64,000 nt of DNA from Sphingobium yanoikuyae (GTDB lineage Bacteria > Pseudomonadota > Alphaproteobacteria > Sphingomonadales > Sphingomonadaceae): contig NZ_CP139979.1 in the NCBI RefSeq assembly GCF_034424525.1, positions 2,939,001 through 3,003,000 of the forward strand, given 5' to 3'. The stretch's first letter is position 1; every line of letters begins with the position of its first letter. Shown here one piece after another: positions 4,556 through 10,743 of this stretch. The notes beneath the pieces are model-generated. The model did not search any database. It was not told the DNA's origin and saw nothing but the letters and a program-made list of their open reading frames with translations. Made by a program: the position numbers and the translations under genes.

Positions 4556-6547
4556 ATGGCGGAACGCGAAGTGATCGATGAACAGGACCGGGGCTGGCGC
4601 GCCGCGGCGCGGCGCTACATGCCCCTGGTCCTTGGCATATTGCTGATCGGATCGCTCGGCGCCCTGCTCTACAGTGCCAGCAGCGCCTCGCGCGATCACC
4701 AGCGCGCGCTTGCCGAACAGCAGCGCAGCTGGGAAATCATGGCGCTTGCCCGCGCCTTCGAGGCCAAGACCGCCCGCGCCGAAGTGACGCTGGCCCGCTA
4801 TGTCATCAGCCTCGACCCCGACACTGGCCGGCTGTTCCAGGACCAGTGGCGCACCGCCGCCAGCCAGCTCAAGTCGCTGACCTATGCCACCCGCAAGTCC
4901 GACTGGCAGCGCGGCAATGTCCGCGCGCTCCAGGCCGCCTTCGAACAGCGCGGCAAGACGCTGAGCGAAATCGGCCTGCGCACCACCTATGACCAGAAGA
5001 TGGGCGCGCTGGCGCAATTCCATCAGGCCGGGCGATCGCAGGATATCAAGCGACTGACGGCGCTGATCGACCTGGTGATCCAGGCCGAAAATGCGCGGCT
5101 GCGCGAACGCAGCCTGGCCGTCAGCCTGGCGGGCGACCGCACCGAACTGGTCGGCAAGACGTCGCGCATGGTCGGCCTCGCCCTGCTGGTCTGCGTGCTG
5201 TTCGCGCTGTGGCTGGTCAATGCCGCCTATACCGAACGGCGCAACGCGCGCCGCATGGCGGATATGGAGGCGGAACGCGCCGACCGGCTGGAAGAGGCCG
5301 TTTCCGCCCGCACCAGCGAATTGTCGGATGCCTATGAGCAGTTGAAGCGCGAATCCGCCGAACGCGCCGCCGCCGAGGATAATCTGCGCCAGATGCAGAA
5401 GATGGACGCGGTCGGCCAGTTGACCGGCGGCATCGCCCATGACTTCAACAATATGCTGGCGGTCGTCGTCGGCGGGCTGGAACTGGCCAAGCGCAAGCTG
5501 CGGCTGAAGCCGGCCGAGGCGGGCCATCATCTCGACAATGCGATGGAGGGCGCCAACCGCGCCGCCGCGCTGACCCGCCGCCTGCTCGCCTTTGCCCGTT
5601 CCGAACCGCTGCTGCCCAATGCTGTCGATCCCGACAGCCTGCTGCGCGGCATGGCCGATCTGGTCGACCGCACGATCGGCGACCAGATCATCGTCAGCTT
5701 CGCCCACAAGGCAAGCGGCTGGCGCATCTTCGTCGACCAGCATCAGATGGAAAACGCCCTCCTCAACCTGTGCGTCAACGCCCGCGACGCGATGGAGGGC
5801 CGGGGCAAGCTGACCATCTCGACCGGCCAGGCACAGCTTGCCGCCAACCAGATCGGCGAATGCCCGGCCGGCGACTATGTCACCGTCAGCGTCACCGACA
5901 ATGGCTGCGGCATGACGGCCGAGGTGGCCGCCCGCGTGTTCGAGCCCTTCTTCACCACCAAGCCGGTCGGCAAGGGCACCGGCCTTGGCCTCAGCCAGAT
6001 TTTCGGCTTCGTGCGCCAGAGCCAGGGCGAAATCCGCATCGAATCCGAACTGGGCACCGGCACCAGCGTCCATATCTACCTGCCGCGCCGCATCCTGACC
6101 GAGCAGGAGGCTGCCGCAGAAGCCCCGGCGAGCGAGCAGCTGCACACGCTCCATCCCCCGACCCGCATCCTGGTGGTGGAGGATGATCCGCGCGTGCTCA
6201 ACCAGACCATGGCGGCGCTAGCCGAACTCGGCCATCTGCCGATCGCCTGCGACCATCCCAGCAAGGCGGCCAAGCTGCTCAGCAACAATGCCGATATCGG
6301 CCTGATCATGAGCGACGTGCTGATGCCCGACATGACCGGGCCGGAAATGATCCGCACCCTGCCCGCCCATATGCGCCATCTGCCGGTGCTGTTCGTCACC
6401 GGCTTCACCGGCGACGCGACCGACAGCGACGATTTCCGGGGGCATGAAGTGCTGCGCAAGCCCTATACGCTCAATGCCCTGGGCCTTGCGCTGTCGAACG
6501 CGCTCAGCGGATCGAACCACCCAGGAACAGCCGCGGCAGCAGAGTGA
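4556..6547 (+). CDS. Membrane hybrid sensor histidine kinase with C-terminal receiver
   Basis: A 663-residue two-component sensor. Two transmembrane segments (about 22-41 and 205-223) flank a helical periplasmic region that resembles CHASE3. A short coiled coil (235-285) leads to the HisKA box GGIAHDFNN with phospho-acceptor H295. The HATPase domain has an N box near 400-412, DNGCGM at 448-453 and GKGTGLGL at 472-479. A receiver domain (about 535-650) has acidic D543/D544, phospho-acceptor D587 and K635. No separate response regulator is adjacent, so output must go through a distant partner. The gene follows spt closely, but the spt terminator makes it a separate unit. No clear ribosome binding site precedes the ATG, so the start is less certain. 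Confidence 0.88.
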
Positions 6548-7385
6548 CCGCGCCCAGCAGCGGCCAGCGCCGCTGCCAGGGCTTGATCTCGATTGCGGTG
6601 CCGGCATGGCGGTTGATCTTCCACGCCAGATAATCGATCCCGCCGGCATAGGTGAAGCTCGCCTTGGCGAGGCGCACCACCGACAGATATTTGCCGCGCC
6701 GCTGCAGCCCGCGCCAGACCTTGTCCGCATGGTCGGGTGACGGCGGCAGCCCCTCGGCCAGCGCCGCCGCGCCGAAACGGCGATAGCGGTCGGGATCGGC
6801 ATCCACGATCGAGAGCGAGCGGCCCGTCTTCTCCGCCCGCAATTCGGCGTTATAGGTGAGGGTAAAGCCGGTCTTCCACAGCAGGATCGGGTCATTCCCC
6901 TGCCCGTCCACCATCGGCCGGGCGAGCGACAGCAGGGTGGGCGCGGCCTGCGCCACCGCCGCCAGCGCGCGCTGCCGCGCCAGATCATCCGCCGACCACA
7001 GCAGCCGCGATGGCTGGGCAAAGCGCGCCCAGACCGAGACATTGTCCGCCTTCATGCTGTTCAGCCGGGCAAAGTCGGCCTCCGACAGCACGGCATATTT
7101 GGCGATCAGGCCGCCATGTTCGAACGGAAACACATTGGGCGGGATCGCGCGGTTGGCGCGCGCCAGCCAGCCCTTGCCATAGGCCGCCTCATAATCGGAG
7201 ACGATCAGGTAGAAATCGAGCATCAGCCCGTCGAGATTGGCCTCGCGCAGGCAGGAGCCGTAGAAGAGCACCGCCCGCGCCGCACCGGGATATTTCGCCG
7301 CCAGCGCCCCCGCCATGGCGGCCGCGCGCGGATCGGCCGGCGCGGACAGTTCGGCAGCGACGAGCGAGAACAGGCTGTTGGTCAT
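6504..7385 (-). CDS. Tam41/Mmp37-like nucleotidyltransferase, possible lipid head-group cytidylyltransferase
   Basis: A 293-residue protein. Its N-terminal half has the pattern of Tam41 (Mmp37) phosphatidate cytidylyltransferases: YGS at 42-44, LDF (acidic D57) followed by hydrophobics and SD at 56-64, then IAKYAVLS (94-101) and ARFAQP (120-125). That family uses CTP to make CDP-linked lipids at the membrane. The C-terminus is basic and hydrophobic, consistent with membrane association. It lies next to the spt locus, and a cytidylyltransferase serves ceramide head-group synthesis in Caulobacter (CpgD, from memory), so a sphingolipid role is plausible but inferred. Its 3' end overlaps the kinase gene by 44 bases in antisense. 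Confidence 0.65.
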   Translation of the reverse strand: MTNSLFSLVAAELSAPADPRAAAMAGALAAKYPGAARAVLFYGSCLREANLDGLMLDFYLIVSDYEAAYGKGWLARANRAIPPNVFPFEHGGLIAKYAVLSEADFARLNSMKADNVSVWARFAQPSRLLWSADDLARQRALAAVAQAAPTLLSLARPMVDGQGNDPILLWKTGFTLTYNAELRAEKTGRSLSIVDADPDRYRRFGAAALAEGLPPSPDHADKVWRGLQRRGKYLSVVRLAKASFTYAGGIDYLAWKINRHAGTAIEIKPWQRRWPLLGAVTLLPRLFLGGSIR

Positions 7386-7605
7386 GGAACCACCTGACAG
7401 GAGCCTTGCGCTCTTTCAATCCCGATGACGCTCCGGCGCGCACGGAAATGCGCGTCCTCGCCCGGCTGTTCGATGCAGGACCAGGATCGCTTCCAATCGA
7501 CAGGATGGTCATGCTTGACAAGGATCGGCGGAAATTCCTAGCAATTGCAGGCCGGATCCGGCGACAAACGCACTCCCTTCCACCATTGTTCGCCAAGGGC
7601 CACGC
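7386..7605. promoter_or_regulatory. Divergent promoter region between the Tam41-like gene and the glycan cassette
   Basis: A 220-base non-coding gap between divergent genes. It holds a consensus-like TTGACA at 7515-7520 on the plus strand, with a weak TAGCAA 18 bases later. This could drive the sialyltransferase-like gene at 7606. It is more AT-rich than neighbouring coding DNA by eye. Confidence 0.35.
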
Positions 7606-9183
7606 ATGCGGGACATTTCCAATCTGAGCCCGCGCGAATGGAAAGCGATCGCCGCGCAAGCGGAGGACGAGGAGGATCTGGCGCTCGCCGCGACGGCACT
7701 TGACCATCTGCTGAAACAAAATGCGCGGGATGACATCCTGCTGGCCCGGCTGTTCCGGGTCTACAGCAATGGCGGACAACGGCAAAAGGCGCTGCAACTG
7801 GCAGAAAGCGCCTTTGCCGACGGCGTCCGCGGCCGACGTTTGACCAGCATGTACATATTGTCCGATTTCACCAGCTATAATCTCCCAAACTGCCTGGACG
7901 ATATCGAAGCGAAACTGGCCTTGTTCCGCCATAATCCCGCGGTCGAGGGACGCGCCGCCATGGCCTATGCCTGGCATGGCAATGTCGATCGTGCGCTCGA
8001 CCATGCGCGGGTCGCCATCGCCCGAGCGGACGAGGCCGCCACCGCCGACATGATCCGCCTGCTACTGGCCCGGCGCGTGTATCAGCTCAGCCATCGCGAC
8101 GCGGCCGATCGCATCTGTCGCATGGGCCGGCAAAGCCCCGACCTGCGACCGGCGATCTTGTTCGACCGCTTGCTGGTCCGCACCGGCAATGTCGCGAACG
8201 ATGCCACCACCCACCAGTTATTCCGCCAGTTGCTGACGATGGACGATTTTCCGCGTCGCACCGAACTGGTTGCCCAGCATATCGACTTCCGCTGGCGCCT
8301 GAACGGTCCGTCACCCGCCCTGCTGGACGAGATCGACCAGCATCTGGCCTCCGGGCCGCGCCAGGACGTCATCCCCCTCACCCTGATGAAGCTGTCGATG
8401 GCCATGCAATTGGGGGATGAGGCGCTCGCCCTGCAGACGCTGCGATCCCACCCGGAACTGGCGCGCAAGGCGTCGGCATGCCTGCCCGTGGCACGGCTCC
8501 TGCGCGATCATGGCACAGGCACGGATGCGCCCGTCGATCCAGAGGTCGCGGCCTATGCCAGCCTCTATGACGAACTTGCCGACAGCGAAGCGGTGCTGCG
8601 CAAGCGACTGGGCAATCCGGACGTGACCTGTGCCGTGGTCGGCAACTCATCCTGCGAGATCGGTCGCGGCCATGGCGCCCAGATCGATGCCCATGACGAA
8701 GTGGTCCGCTTCAACCGGTTCGACACATCCCCGCCGTTCGACCGCGACTATGGCAGCAGGACGACGGTCCTGGTTCGCGTGGGCAACGACCGACCGGAAA
8801 TCGGCATCGACATGGCCCCCAACACGCTCGTTCTCATTTCTTCGGCCAGCATCCTGTACCGCGGGCGCGCTTGGCGAGCCGCACTGCGGATGCGGGATGA
8901 AGGGCATCAGCTCTGCGTTTTCCCGCAACGCTTCCAGACTCAATTGTCGAAGATGCTCGTCGGCAGTCCCAGTTCCGGCCTGTCCTTCGTCCACCTGCTC
9001 AAGGCCCTGCGCGGCACGCTGCACAGGGAGGATTTCTTCGGCTTCGCCTTTGTCGACCAGATCGGCAACCAGGCCAAATCCGCCCATTATTTCGAGGCCG
9101 CCAAACCCTCCGCCATGCATCAATGGGATAGGGAATTGGAAATCTTCAACGCCATGTTCGACGATGGTGCGTCATGCGACTGA
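7606..9183 (+). CDS. GT29 sialyltransferase-like glycosyltransferase with N-terminal helical-repeat domain
   Basis: A 525-residue protein in two parts. Residues 1-330 are helical and TPR-like. Residues 335-510 carry the signatures of glycosyltransferase family 29: an L-type motif (CAVVGNSSCEIGRG at 342-355, ending in VVRFN at 366-370), an S-type motif (SPSSGLSFVHLL at 454-465, with FFGF at 477-480) and a VS-type HYFE (494-497). GT29 enzymes move sialic acid from CMP-donors to glycans and are mostly eukaryotic. The bacterial donor could be another CMP-sugar such as Kdo. No signal peptide is seen, so it should be cytoplasmic. The next gene overlaps it by 10 bases. Codon choice looks less GC-biased at third positions than in neighbours, consistent with transfer. 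Confidence 0.78.
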   Translation: MRDISNLSPREWKAIAAQAEDEEDLALAATALDHLLKQNARDDILLARLFRVYSNGGQRQKALQLAESAFADGVRGRRLTSMYILSDFTSYNLPNCLDDIEAKLALFRHNPAVEGRAAMAYAWHGNVDRALDHARVAIARADEAATADMIRLLLARRVYQLSHRDAADRICRMGRQSPDLRPAILFDRLLVRTGNVANDATTHQLFRQLLTMDDFPRRTELVAQHIDFRWRLNGPSPALLDEIDQHLASGPRQDVIPLTLMKLSMAMQLGDEALALQTLRSHPELARKASACLPVARLLRDHGTGTDAPVDPEVAAYASLYDELADSEAVLRKRLGNPDVTCAVVGNSSCEIGRGHGAQIDAHDEVVRFNRFDTSPPFDRDYGSRTTVLVRVGNDRPEIGIDMAPNTLVLISSASILYRGRAWRAALRMRDEGHQLCVFPQRFQTQLSKMLVGSPSSGLSFVHLLKALRGTLHREDFFGFAFVDQIGNQAKSAHYFEAAKPSAMHQWDRELEIFNAMFDDGASCD

Positions 9184-9980
9184 AGGCAATGATGGCCGGC
9201 GATCACAGCGCCTATCATTGCGGCTCGGCCGCCGTATTCTCGACCCTGCGTCGTTTGCTGGAAGTCGATCATGACATTGTCGAGGAGGGCGATTTCGACG
9301 TCCTCTATGTCAATGGCGAAGGGTCGATGCACCATGATTCAGGCCAGTTCACCAAGAAAATGGAACTGCTCAAGGCGGCGATCGAGAATGGGAAAAAAGC
9401 CTATCTGGTCAACAGCGTGTGGCAGGAAAATGGCCATCAATATGATGGCGTGCTTGCCCGGCTGTCCGGCATCACCGTCCGTGAACTTGCAAGCCAGCAG
9501 GAGCTTGCCACGCGACATGGGATAACGGCCACGATGGCGCTCGACCTGTCCTATTACGCGCCCATCGACGAAGACGCATCGCATCAGGACTGGCGTGGCC
9601 AGGTCGTGATCACCGATTTCTATGCGCGGGATTTCGGCTTCTGGTATCGCGTAAACAGCGGCCCGCTGACGGCGCGCAGCTATGTCGACATGCGGGATTA
9701 TGGCTGGTCGGCGTTCGTCCGCTCGCTGCGCACCTGCCGCGCGATCATCACCGGGCGACATCATGCGGTCTATGCAGCCTGCGTCGCCAGGAAGCCTTTC
9801 GTCACCATCGCCGGTTCCACCCATAAGGTTTCAGGCCTGATCGCGGCCTCGGGCTTTCCGATCCCGACCTTGTCCTCGCCGCGCGACGCTAACGAGACAT
9901 TGCGCTGGACCATGGCCAATCGCGCCATGTTCCAGGAATTTTTCCATTGGATGGATGAAGTGCCGCGATGGCGGCCATGA
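9174..9980 (+). CDS. Polysaccharide pyruvyl transferase family protein
   Basis: A 268-residue protein of the PF04230 family (CsaB/WcaK-like). Visible family signatures are the N-terminal DVLYVNGEGSMHHD (42-55), the central VNSVWQ stretch (79-84), and the C-terminal GRHHAVYAACVARKPFV (194-210) that precedes a Gly-Ser loop. Members transfer pyruvyl ketals to, or otherwise modify, cell-surface sugars. The start codon overlaps the end of the GT29-like gene (ATG at 9174, upstream stop at 9181-9183), so the two are translationally coupled and probably act on the same glycan. The protein is shorter than many family members (300-400 residues). No downstream terminator is clear. Confidence 0.82.
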   Translation: MRLKAMMAGDHSAYHCGSAAVFSTLRRLLEVDHDIVEEGDFDVLYVNGEGSMHHDSGQFTKKMELLKAAIENGKKAYLVNSVWQENGHQYDGVLARLSGITVRELASQQELATRHGITATMALDLSYYAPIDEDASHQDWRGQVVITDFYARDFGFWYRVNSGPLTARSYVDMRDYGWSAFVRSLRTCRAIITGRHHAVYAACVARKPFVTIAGSTHKVSGLIAASGFPIPTLSSPRDANETLRWTMANRAMFQEFFHWMDEVPRWRP

Positions 9981-10037: not shown

Positions 10038-10682
10038 CTATCCCCGGCGATAGACCAGCATCAGATTATTGGCCGGCATCGCCACCCGCCGGGAGCGTGC
10101 CAACCCGACACAGGCCGCCGCCCGGTCGACATCGGTCAGGGTCCGCAGGCCCCATTGCGGGTTGCGATCCTTCAGCGATCGGTCGAACGCCAGATTGGAG
10201 GGGGCGGTCGGCACATCATCCTCGACATAGGGGCCGTAGAGGATCAGCGGCGCGCCCGGCGCCAGCAATCGCGCGCCACACGCCAGCAGCCCCAGCGTCG
10301 CCGCCCAGGGGCTGATATGCACCATGTTGATGCACAGGAGCGCGTCCGCCGCATCGATCGGCCAGTCCACGCTCGCCGCGTCGAGCAGCAACGGCGCGCG
10401 CAGATTGGACAGATTGGCGTCGCCGCGCAGCGCCGCGATCGAGGCCAGCGCCGCGGGATCGGGATCACTGGGCTGCCAATCGAGCGCCGGGAAAGTGACA
10501 GCGAAGTGGACGACATGTTCACCGCTGCCGCTCGCCACTTCCAGCACCAGCCCGGCATCGGGCAGTTCGTCCCGCAGGACAGTCGCGATCGCATCGCGGT
10601 TGCGCAGCGTCGCGGGGGCATGGCGGCGCGGATCGGGGCCGTCGCCCTGCGGCGTCCAGGGTGCGGGGGCGTCCTGTGTCAT
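10038..10682 (-). CDS. DUF938-family SAM-dependent methyltransferase
   Basis: A 214-residue class I methyltransferase-like protein of the DUF938 family. The SAM-binding loop is EVASGSGEH at 48-56, an acidic strand (QPSDPD) follows, and CINMVHISPW lies in the middle. The substrate is unknown. The ATG at 10682 is preferred over one 33 bases upstream because the N-terminus then matches the Pro-rich start seen in the family. It lies downstream of gcvPB, separated from it by a strong terminator, so it probably has its own promoter or relies on read-through. Confidence 0.82.
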   Translation of the reverse strand: MTQDAPAPWTPQGDGPDPRRHAPATLRNRDAIATVLRDELPDAGLVLEVASGSGEHVVHFAVTFPALDWQPSDPDPAALASIAALRGDANLSNLRAPLLLDAASVDWPIDAADALLCINMVHISPWAATLGLLACGARLLAPGAPLILYGPYVEDDVPTAPSNLAFDRSLKDRNPQWGLRTLTDVDRAAACVGLARSRRVAMPANNLMLVYRRG

Positions 10683-10713
10683 GGACAAATCCTTGTCTGT
10701 GGCCGACCGATGC

Positions 10714-10743
10714 AAAAAGGGCGGTGGAGATCCTCCACCGCCC
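10714..10743 (-). terminator. Strong intrinsic terminator of the gcv operon
   Basis: A perfect 11-bp stem (10719-10729 with 10733-10743, loop of three) is followed on the minus strand by a run of five T (10714-10718). It lies just after gcvPB and before the methyltransferase gene. Confidence 0.85.

Follow-up and report, generated by a model that had tools for sequence, protein, structure and literature searches.

Bacterial members of glycosyltransferase family 29 (GT29), the family of the animal sialyltransferases, were the subject of a study in 2018, reportedly with Petit as its first author. That study used 23 proteins, 19 of which were alphaproteobacterial (PMC5811610); the membership of bacterial proteins in GT29 is already published, so it is not new, and the description of the family as mainly eukaryotic, made in an initial annotation of the DNA considered here, needs amending. 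In Escherichia coli K6, a GT29-GT107 protein has been linked to a putative capsule of poly-3-deoxy-D-manno-octulosonic acid (Kdo) (PMC13171606). As for pyruvyltransferases, activity has been recorded for Pvg1p and WbbZ (PMC4872226, PMC10629545), and the known enzymes carry N-x-G-D and RxxxS/T motifs (PMC10629545). The present work concerns a 64,000-nucleotide stretch of Sphingobium yanoikuyae DNA (contig NZ_CP139979.1, positions 2,939,001 to 3,003,000 of the forward strand; hereafter the window), in which a gene encoding a GT29 protein with a tetratricopeptide repeat (TPR)-like domain overlaps a gene of the polysaccharide pyruvyltransferase family PF04230. This PF04230 partnership of GT29 is what appears to be new: in the open-licence literature we found nothing joining GT29 to a pyruvyltransferase, no search being aimed at the changed motif of the partner described below, and no assayed reaction for any bacterial GT29 protein.

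On balance, we hold it to be just probable that the two overlapping genes form a cytosolic two-enzyme set which finishes one surface glycan. The partner gene, missed in the initial annotation, is the more informative part of the locus, which is organised as follows:

7606..9183, forward strand: TPR-GT29 gene, 525 amino acids (aa), from the open reading frame (ORF), Pfam PF00777 and full-length homologs
9174..9183, forward strand: 10-base overlap of the GT29 and partner genes, from their coordinates
9174..9980, forward strand: partner gene, 268 aa, PF04230 polysaccharide pyruvyltransferase family

The pairing is recurrent. We read 12 GT29 loci (the window, L013, L014, L015, L016, L019, L020, L026, L027, L028, L029 and L030), and a PF04230-type gene was adjacent at 6 of them, namely the window and the first five entries below; the GT29 and PF04230 domains were moreover naturally fused, in both orders, in 3 of the 15 proteins of a second GT29 set:

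L013, Nealsonbacteria metagenome-assembled genome (MAG), 3.4-kilobase (kb) contig: PF04230-type neighbour by profile A3, E 1.1e-119
L014, Glycocaulis MAG: PF04230 neighbour, 26.0 bits
L016, Heliobacteriaceae MAG: PF04230 neighbour, 70.2 bits
L019, another genome of the same genus: PF04230 neighbour, 39.4 bits, partner upstream
L028, Pseudosulfitobacter plasmid: PF04230 neighbour, 23.7 bits, just below the cut-off of 25.3
P0137: TPR-GT29-PF04230 fusion, in the same order as the window genes
P0138 and P0139: PF04230-GT29 fusions

The partners at L019 and L028 are of the NxGD type, and were missed by profile A3 and found by Pfam. The PF04230 part of P0137 is 46% identical to the window partner (alignment A4), yet scored 19.4 bits by Pfam. 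In a phylum sample, 3 of the 14 loci besides that of the window strain (L034, L037 and L042) had a PF04230 neighbour, with His-x-Gly-Cys. For 6 of 12 GT29 homologs (P0002, which is the cluster containing the window protein itself, P0005, P0006, P0008, P0009 and P0012), the longest contig had the same size as that of a partner homolog, which suggests that both lie on one contig, adjacency itself not being observed. Finally, a PF04230 match lay within about 1.2 kb of GT29 in 4 of 17 GT29-bearing genomes (G211, G769, G926 and G1038; own genome of the window strain excluded), where uniform placement over a 4-kb span would give 0.02 (P about 5e-9); this estimate uses no tree, and the fusions are independent of it. 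That GT29 and PF04230 enzymes occur as a single protein in some other bacteria suggests a joint action on one and the same sugar. One could still see in the pair chance neighbours or a decayed island devoid of joint function, since the GT29 profile is sporadic, with matches in 2 of the 94 genus genomes scanned, and the guanine-cytosine (GC) content is somewhat lower across the two genes. This is highly improbable because of the fusions, found in both orders alongside adjacent or overlapping genes across distant bacteria, and the frames are intact with conserved motif residues in both genes.

Assignment of the larger protein to GT29 was clear. It matched PF00777 (Glyco_transf_29) at 48.9 bits in a Pfam scan, above the cut-off of 23, and this family matched all 11 members of alignment A1 at E <= 0.01. 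A profile match was also obtained to the alpha-2,8-sialyltransferase structure 5bo6, which we take to be that of ST8Sia III (E 1.7e-12), and the predicted model matched ST6Gal1, with the GT-A variant fold of sialyltransferases. The profile search and structure prediction proposed in the initial annotation thus confirmed the GT29-like protein with a helical N-terminal domain that it had described. Among the best 7998 candidates scored (E <= 0.001), at least 12 proteins were GT29 homologs, of which the named ones belong to Sphingobium yanoikuyae and Methylobacterium and share 45-87% identity across 98-100% of the length; such near full-length homologs indicate that the TPR-GT29 architecture is a stable family. 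Public annotation of the Sphingobium and Methylobacterium homologs already carries the GT29 family name. The protein is predicted to transfer a sugar from a cytidine monophosphate (CMP)-activated donor. Its parts are:

7606..8610, forward strand: TPR-like helical superhelix, residues 1-335, from the AlphaFold2 (AF2) model, OGT/CTPR structure matches and TPR_19
8611..9180, forward strand: GT29 catalytic domain, residues 336-525
8629..8769, forward strand: sialylmotif L, residues 342-388, from the profile alignment to 5bo6
8968..9042, forward strand: sialylmotif S, residues 455-479, after the definition in PMC6884586
9085..9096, forward strand: sialylmotif III, HYFE, residues 494-497, with H494 as expected catalytic acid; model confidence is low here
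9118..9135, forward strand: sialylmotif VS pattern, H505-x4-E510, with H505 as expected catalytic base, from invariance and pattern

Four stretches fitting sialylmotifs L, S, III and VS thus occur in order, together with a pair of histidines. In described enzymes, motif III reads H-Y-x-E/D and its histidine is the catalytic acid, while VS reads H-x4-E and its histidine is the base (PMC6884586). Here, motif III reads H494-Y-F-E497 and the VS pattern H505-Q-W-D-R-E510, so that the reading of HYFE at 494-497 as VS in the initial annotation was wrong. The VS assignment follows from pattern and invariance: H505, W507 and E510 are invariant in all 11 rows of A1 and all 10 rows of A2. H494 is invariant in A1, but some distant relatives have another residue at this place (R at L013, S at L026 and A at L028), and motifs III and VS are 11 residues apart, versus 17 in hST3Gal1. 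From these features, H494 would be the acid and H505 the base. A conserved cysteine pair between motifs L and S was not found, C342 not being invariant in A1 and residues 455-479 containing no cysteine, and no 19-residue stretch of the protein was hydrophobic enough for a membrane anchor (highest Kyte-Doolittle mean 1.42). The lack of an anchor-like stretch and of cysteine in the motif S stretch is as expected for a cytosolic enzyme. The fused TPR-like domain, also put forward initially, was supported by the fold predicted by AF2, with 20 helices within residues 9-335, by matches of this part to OGT, SPY and CTPR structures, and by TPR_19, which was present in 7 of the 11 A1 members and scored 14.1 bits, below the cut-off, in the window protein itself.

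The partner protein matched PF04230 at 41.9 bits (Pfam cut-off 25.3). Its model (predicted local distance difference test, pLDDT, 93.7) had Pvg1p and WbbZ as first Foldseek matches, and is predicted to share their fold; a sequence search for solved relatives gave a single chance match (E 0.21). One of its homologs, 96% identical, carries the name Sphingobium yanoikuyae. Three motifs were considered:

9216..9227, forward strand: residues 15-18, H-C-G-S, in place of N-x-G-D, from the columns of 45 homologs, the correspondence being inferred from order
9480..9494, forward strand: R103-xxx-S107 (RxxxS/T)
9756..9764, forward strand: R195-H-H197

N-x-G-D was found in none of the 45 homologs, in which the residue after H-x-G is S in 33, C in 10, G in 1 and A in 1, and never D. 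R103 was present in 44 of them, and S107 and H197 in all 45. We take RxxxS and the C-terminal R-x-H for the contacts to phosphoenolpyruvate (PEP) made by R217 and R337 in Pvg1p. Partners with HxG[S/C] point to a class of pyruvyltransferases with a changed active-site motif.

The donor sugar was approached through the gene content of the strain, whose genome was scored 100% complete. No NeuB match was found in it, versus matches in 9 of 14 control genomes, and sialic acid as donor in the window strain was for this reason thought unlikely. Five PF02348 matches were found, three of them strong (loci L002, L003 and L004) and KdsB-like by eye, and one strong KdsB-like gene forms a row with genes resembling KdsD and KdsA; these Kds names were assigned by eye. 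There was no match to PF04413 (WaaA-type) in this genome, this family being matched in just 3 of the 14 controls, and lipopolysaccharide (LPS) was set aside as a sink for Kdo. Kdo is therefore probably made in this strain and not sent to LPS by the usual enzyme, and the absence of NeuB and WaaA matches, together with three KdsB-like matches, makes CMP-Kdo the most likely donor. The claim that the donor is a CMP-activated acidic sugar, made initially with the advice to look for CMP-sugar synthase genes, fits these predictions. The same genome holds two KpsC/KpsS-type sets, and near one of them we observed a fusion of TPR and a group 1 glycosyltransferase (L021:1672-4149, reverse strand, 826 aa).

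Relatives elsewhere also lie near Kdo genes. On an E. coli plasmid (L026), a GT29 relative is found alongside annotated kdsB and capsule genes. In Alkalihalobacillus (L015), GT29 is fused to PF05159 (140.6 bits) with a weak TPR below cut-off, and the fusion gene lies downstream of genes that by eye are KdsA/KdsD/KdsC-like. With these genes upstream of it, the fusion gene (L015:4141-6657; PF05159 KpsC-type, weak TPR, GT29) probably marks a locus for a Kdo polymer in a Gram-positive bacterium. As for the product, Cobetia marina is reported to contain 7,8-linked pyruvylated Kdo, and a Methylobacterium to have a pyruvylated exopolysaccharide (PMC6801904), which makes a pyruvylated product plausible.

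From a mechanistic point of view, the family assignments, predicted fold and motifs described above, together with the overlap of the two genes and their repeated pairing and natural fusion elsewhere, can be brought together in one scheme, for which we infer the donor, the acceptor, the order of the steps and the pyruvylated product. The TPR superhelix would dock the GT29 enzyme on its acceptor or on a synthase complex, and the GT29 domain would carry out the inverting transfer of Kdo from CMP-Kdo, a CMP-activated ulosonic acid, with H494 acting as the acid and H505 as the base. The partner, as a variant ketal pyruvyltransferase, would place pyruvate from PEP onto this glycan too; its target would be either the newly transferred ulosonic acid or the sugar to which GT29 had attached it. 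A bolder and tentative proposal is that GT29 and the HxG[S/C] type of PF04230 constitute a mobile, repeatedly fused two-step cassette making a pyruvylated ulosonic acid end-group (e.g., pyruvyl-Kdo), with TPR as docking arm; if this were true, bacteria would have in this end-group, with its two acidic components, an equivalent of sialic acid caps. Whether fused to GT29 or encoded beside it, the pyruvyltransferase-family protein leads to a product that can be tested for, namely an acidic end-group carrying pyruvate as well as an ulosonic acid. Bacterial GT29 proteins, being related to the sialyltransferases of animals but free of an anchor, may moreover be simpler to study.

Several observations weigh against this scheme. 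No PF04230 neighbour was found at 6 of the 12 loci read, as judged by profile A3 and eye only at L015 and L029, by profile A3 and an incomplete gene table at L026 and L027, and additionally by a whole-genome PF04230 search at L020 and L030; the same holds for 11 of the 14 phylum-sample loci, which, like L013 and L030, span just about 3 kb. When clustering of glycan genes is allowed for, 0.27 neighbours are expected within 50 kb (P 1e-4) and 1.05 within 200 kb (P 0.016). The homologs of the partner numbered 144, of which 120 were listed, whereas two homolog sets, one of them capped at the best 7998 candidates, gave 16 distinct GT29 proteins; going by these protein counts, the partner may often work without GT29. 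Regarding the GT29 protein, Foldseek placed sialyltransferases 33rd (E 0.0045), below TPR proteins, the AF2 model has low confidence for residues 349-352 and 484-501, which include parts of motifs L and III, and a second segment of the 5bo6 alignment (6.3 bits, not significant) leaves H505 off any histidine. The partner lacks the aspartate of NxGD and may not carry out pyruvylation in its usual form if this residue, as we surmise, corresponds to D106 of Pvg1p, the loss of which leaves almost no activity (PMC10629545). Epimerases tie with Pvg1p by fold, and the partner could instead be an epimerase-like enzyme, or a glycosyltransferase of the GT-B type, whose product serves GT29 as acceptor; this seems unlikely, as the Pfam and first Foldseek matches favour pyruvyltransferases, RxxxS and the C-terminal R-x-H are kept, and two other GT29 loci, L019 and L028, have NxGD-type partners. 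Lastly, the GT29 gene of Paracoccus (L027) adjoins an acylneuraminate-type cytidylyltransferase, which means that not all loci need share one donor. CMP-Neu5Ac is the donor of the classic GT29 enzymes, and the same two enzymes could work here with sialic, legionaminic or another nonulosonic acid, imported or made by an unrecognised route; with NeuB unmatched in a genome scored as complete and three strong KdsB-like matches, we consider this quite improbable, and keep to CMP-Kdo.

GT29 matches are sporadic. At the level of the order, PF00777 scans matched 3 of 296 genomes, and at that of the class 2 of 385; the wider profile A2 matched 15 of 398 phylum genomes, many with short, weak GT29-like proteins. 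In a phylogeny restricted to bacterial loci, another step proposed initially, paired and unpaired groups were mixed with weak support at several nodes, and no history was drawn from it. Around the pair, an upstream ORF (7010-7627, forward strand) was rejected as an operon member, having failed a composition filter and matched nothing in Pfam or NCBIfam. A coding-like gene of 293 aa (6504-7385, reverse strand) is divergent from the GT29 gene and has no Pfam match at E <= 0.01. Elsewhere, a methyltransferase-GT29 fusion was seen in a genome from the taxonomic family to which the window strain belongs (L020:6327-7523, reverse strand), and a second short GT29-like ORF lies on the opposite strand beside the pair of L013 (2531-3070, reverse strand; 16.5 bits, below the Pfam cut-off).

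The TPR part invites comparison with FlmG of Caulobacter, an alphaproteobacterial protein in which an N-terminal TPR part likewise precedes a C-terminal transferase for a nine-carbon acid; flagellin is bound by this TPR part, and transfer depends on it (PMC7591256). Matches of the window protein to OGT and SPY structures go in the same direction, and the pair could be a protein O-glycosylation system, in which TPR binds a protein acceptor, GT29 adds an ulosonic acid and the partner pyruvylates it. FlmG, however, has a GT-B superfamily domain, uses pseudaminic acid made via NeuB and acts on flagellin (PMC7591256); the window protein has a GT29 domain, and NeuB is unmatched in its genome. Moreover, the Pfam-assigned neighbours are histidine kinase and glycine-cleavage genes (6504-7385 has no family, and the scan excluded an ORF at 10038-10715, reverse strand), and some GT29 relatives sit in capsule-type loci. 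We regard protein glycosylation as rather unlikely, and compare the locus below as a two-enzyme set for a surface glycan.

With animal GT29 enzymes (ST6Gal1, ST3Gal1, ST8Sia III), the window protein shares PF00777, stretches fitting L, S, III and VS and the predicted fold; unlike them, it has no likely transmembrane anchor and no conserved cysteine pair, carries a TPR superhelix in front and probably uses Kdo. It resembles the bacterial set of 2018, mostly alphaproteobacterial, in which the four sialylmotifs are present and a conserved disulfide is lacking; the word tetratricopeptide is absent from the main text of that paper (PMC5811610). With the GT29 proteins of E. coli capsules, K6 included, it shares a GT29 domain in a Kdo-linked setting, the K6 protein differing from the window pair in its fusion to a GT107 domain (PMC13171606); the E. 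coli plasmid locus L026 has no annotated pyruvyltransferase. The partner, for its part, shares with Pvg1p and WbbZ the fold, the RxxxS/T motif and the histidine (PMC4872226, PMC10629545), and differs from them by HxG[S/C] in place of NxGD throughout its 45 homologs (one G and one A included) and by its position, adjacent or fused to GT29.
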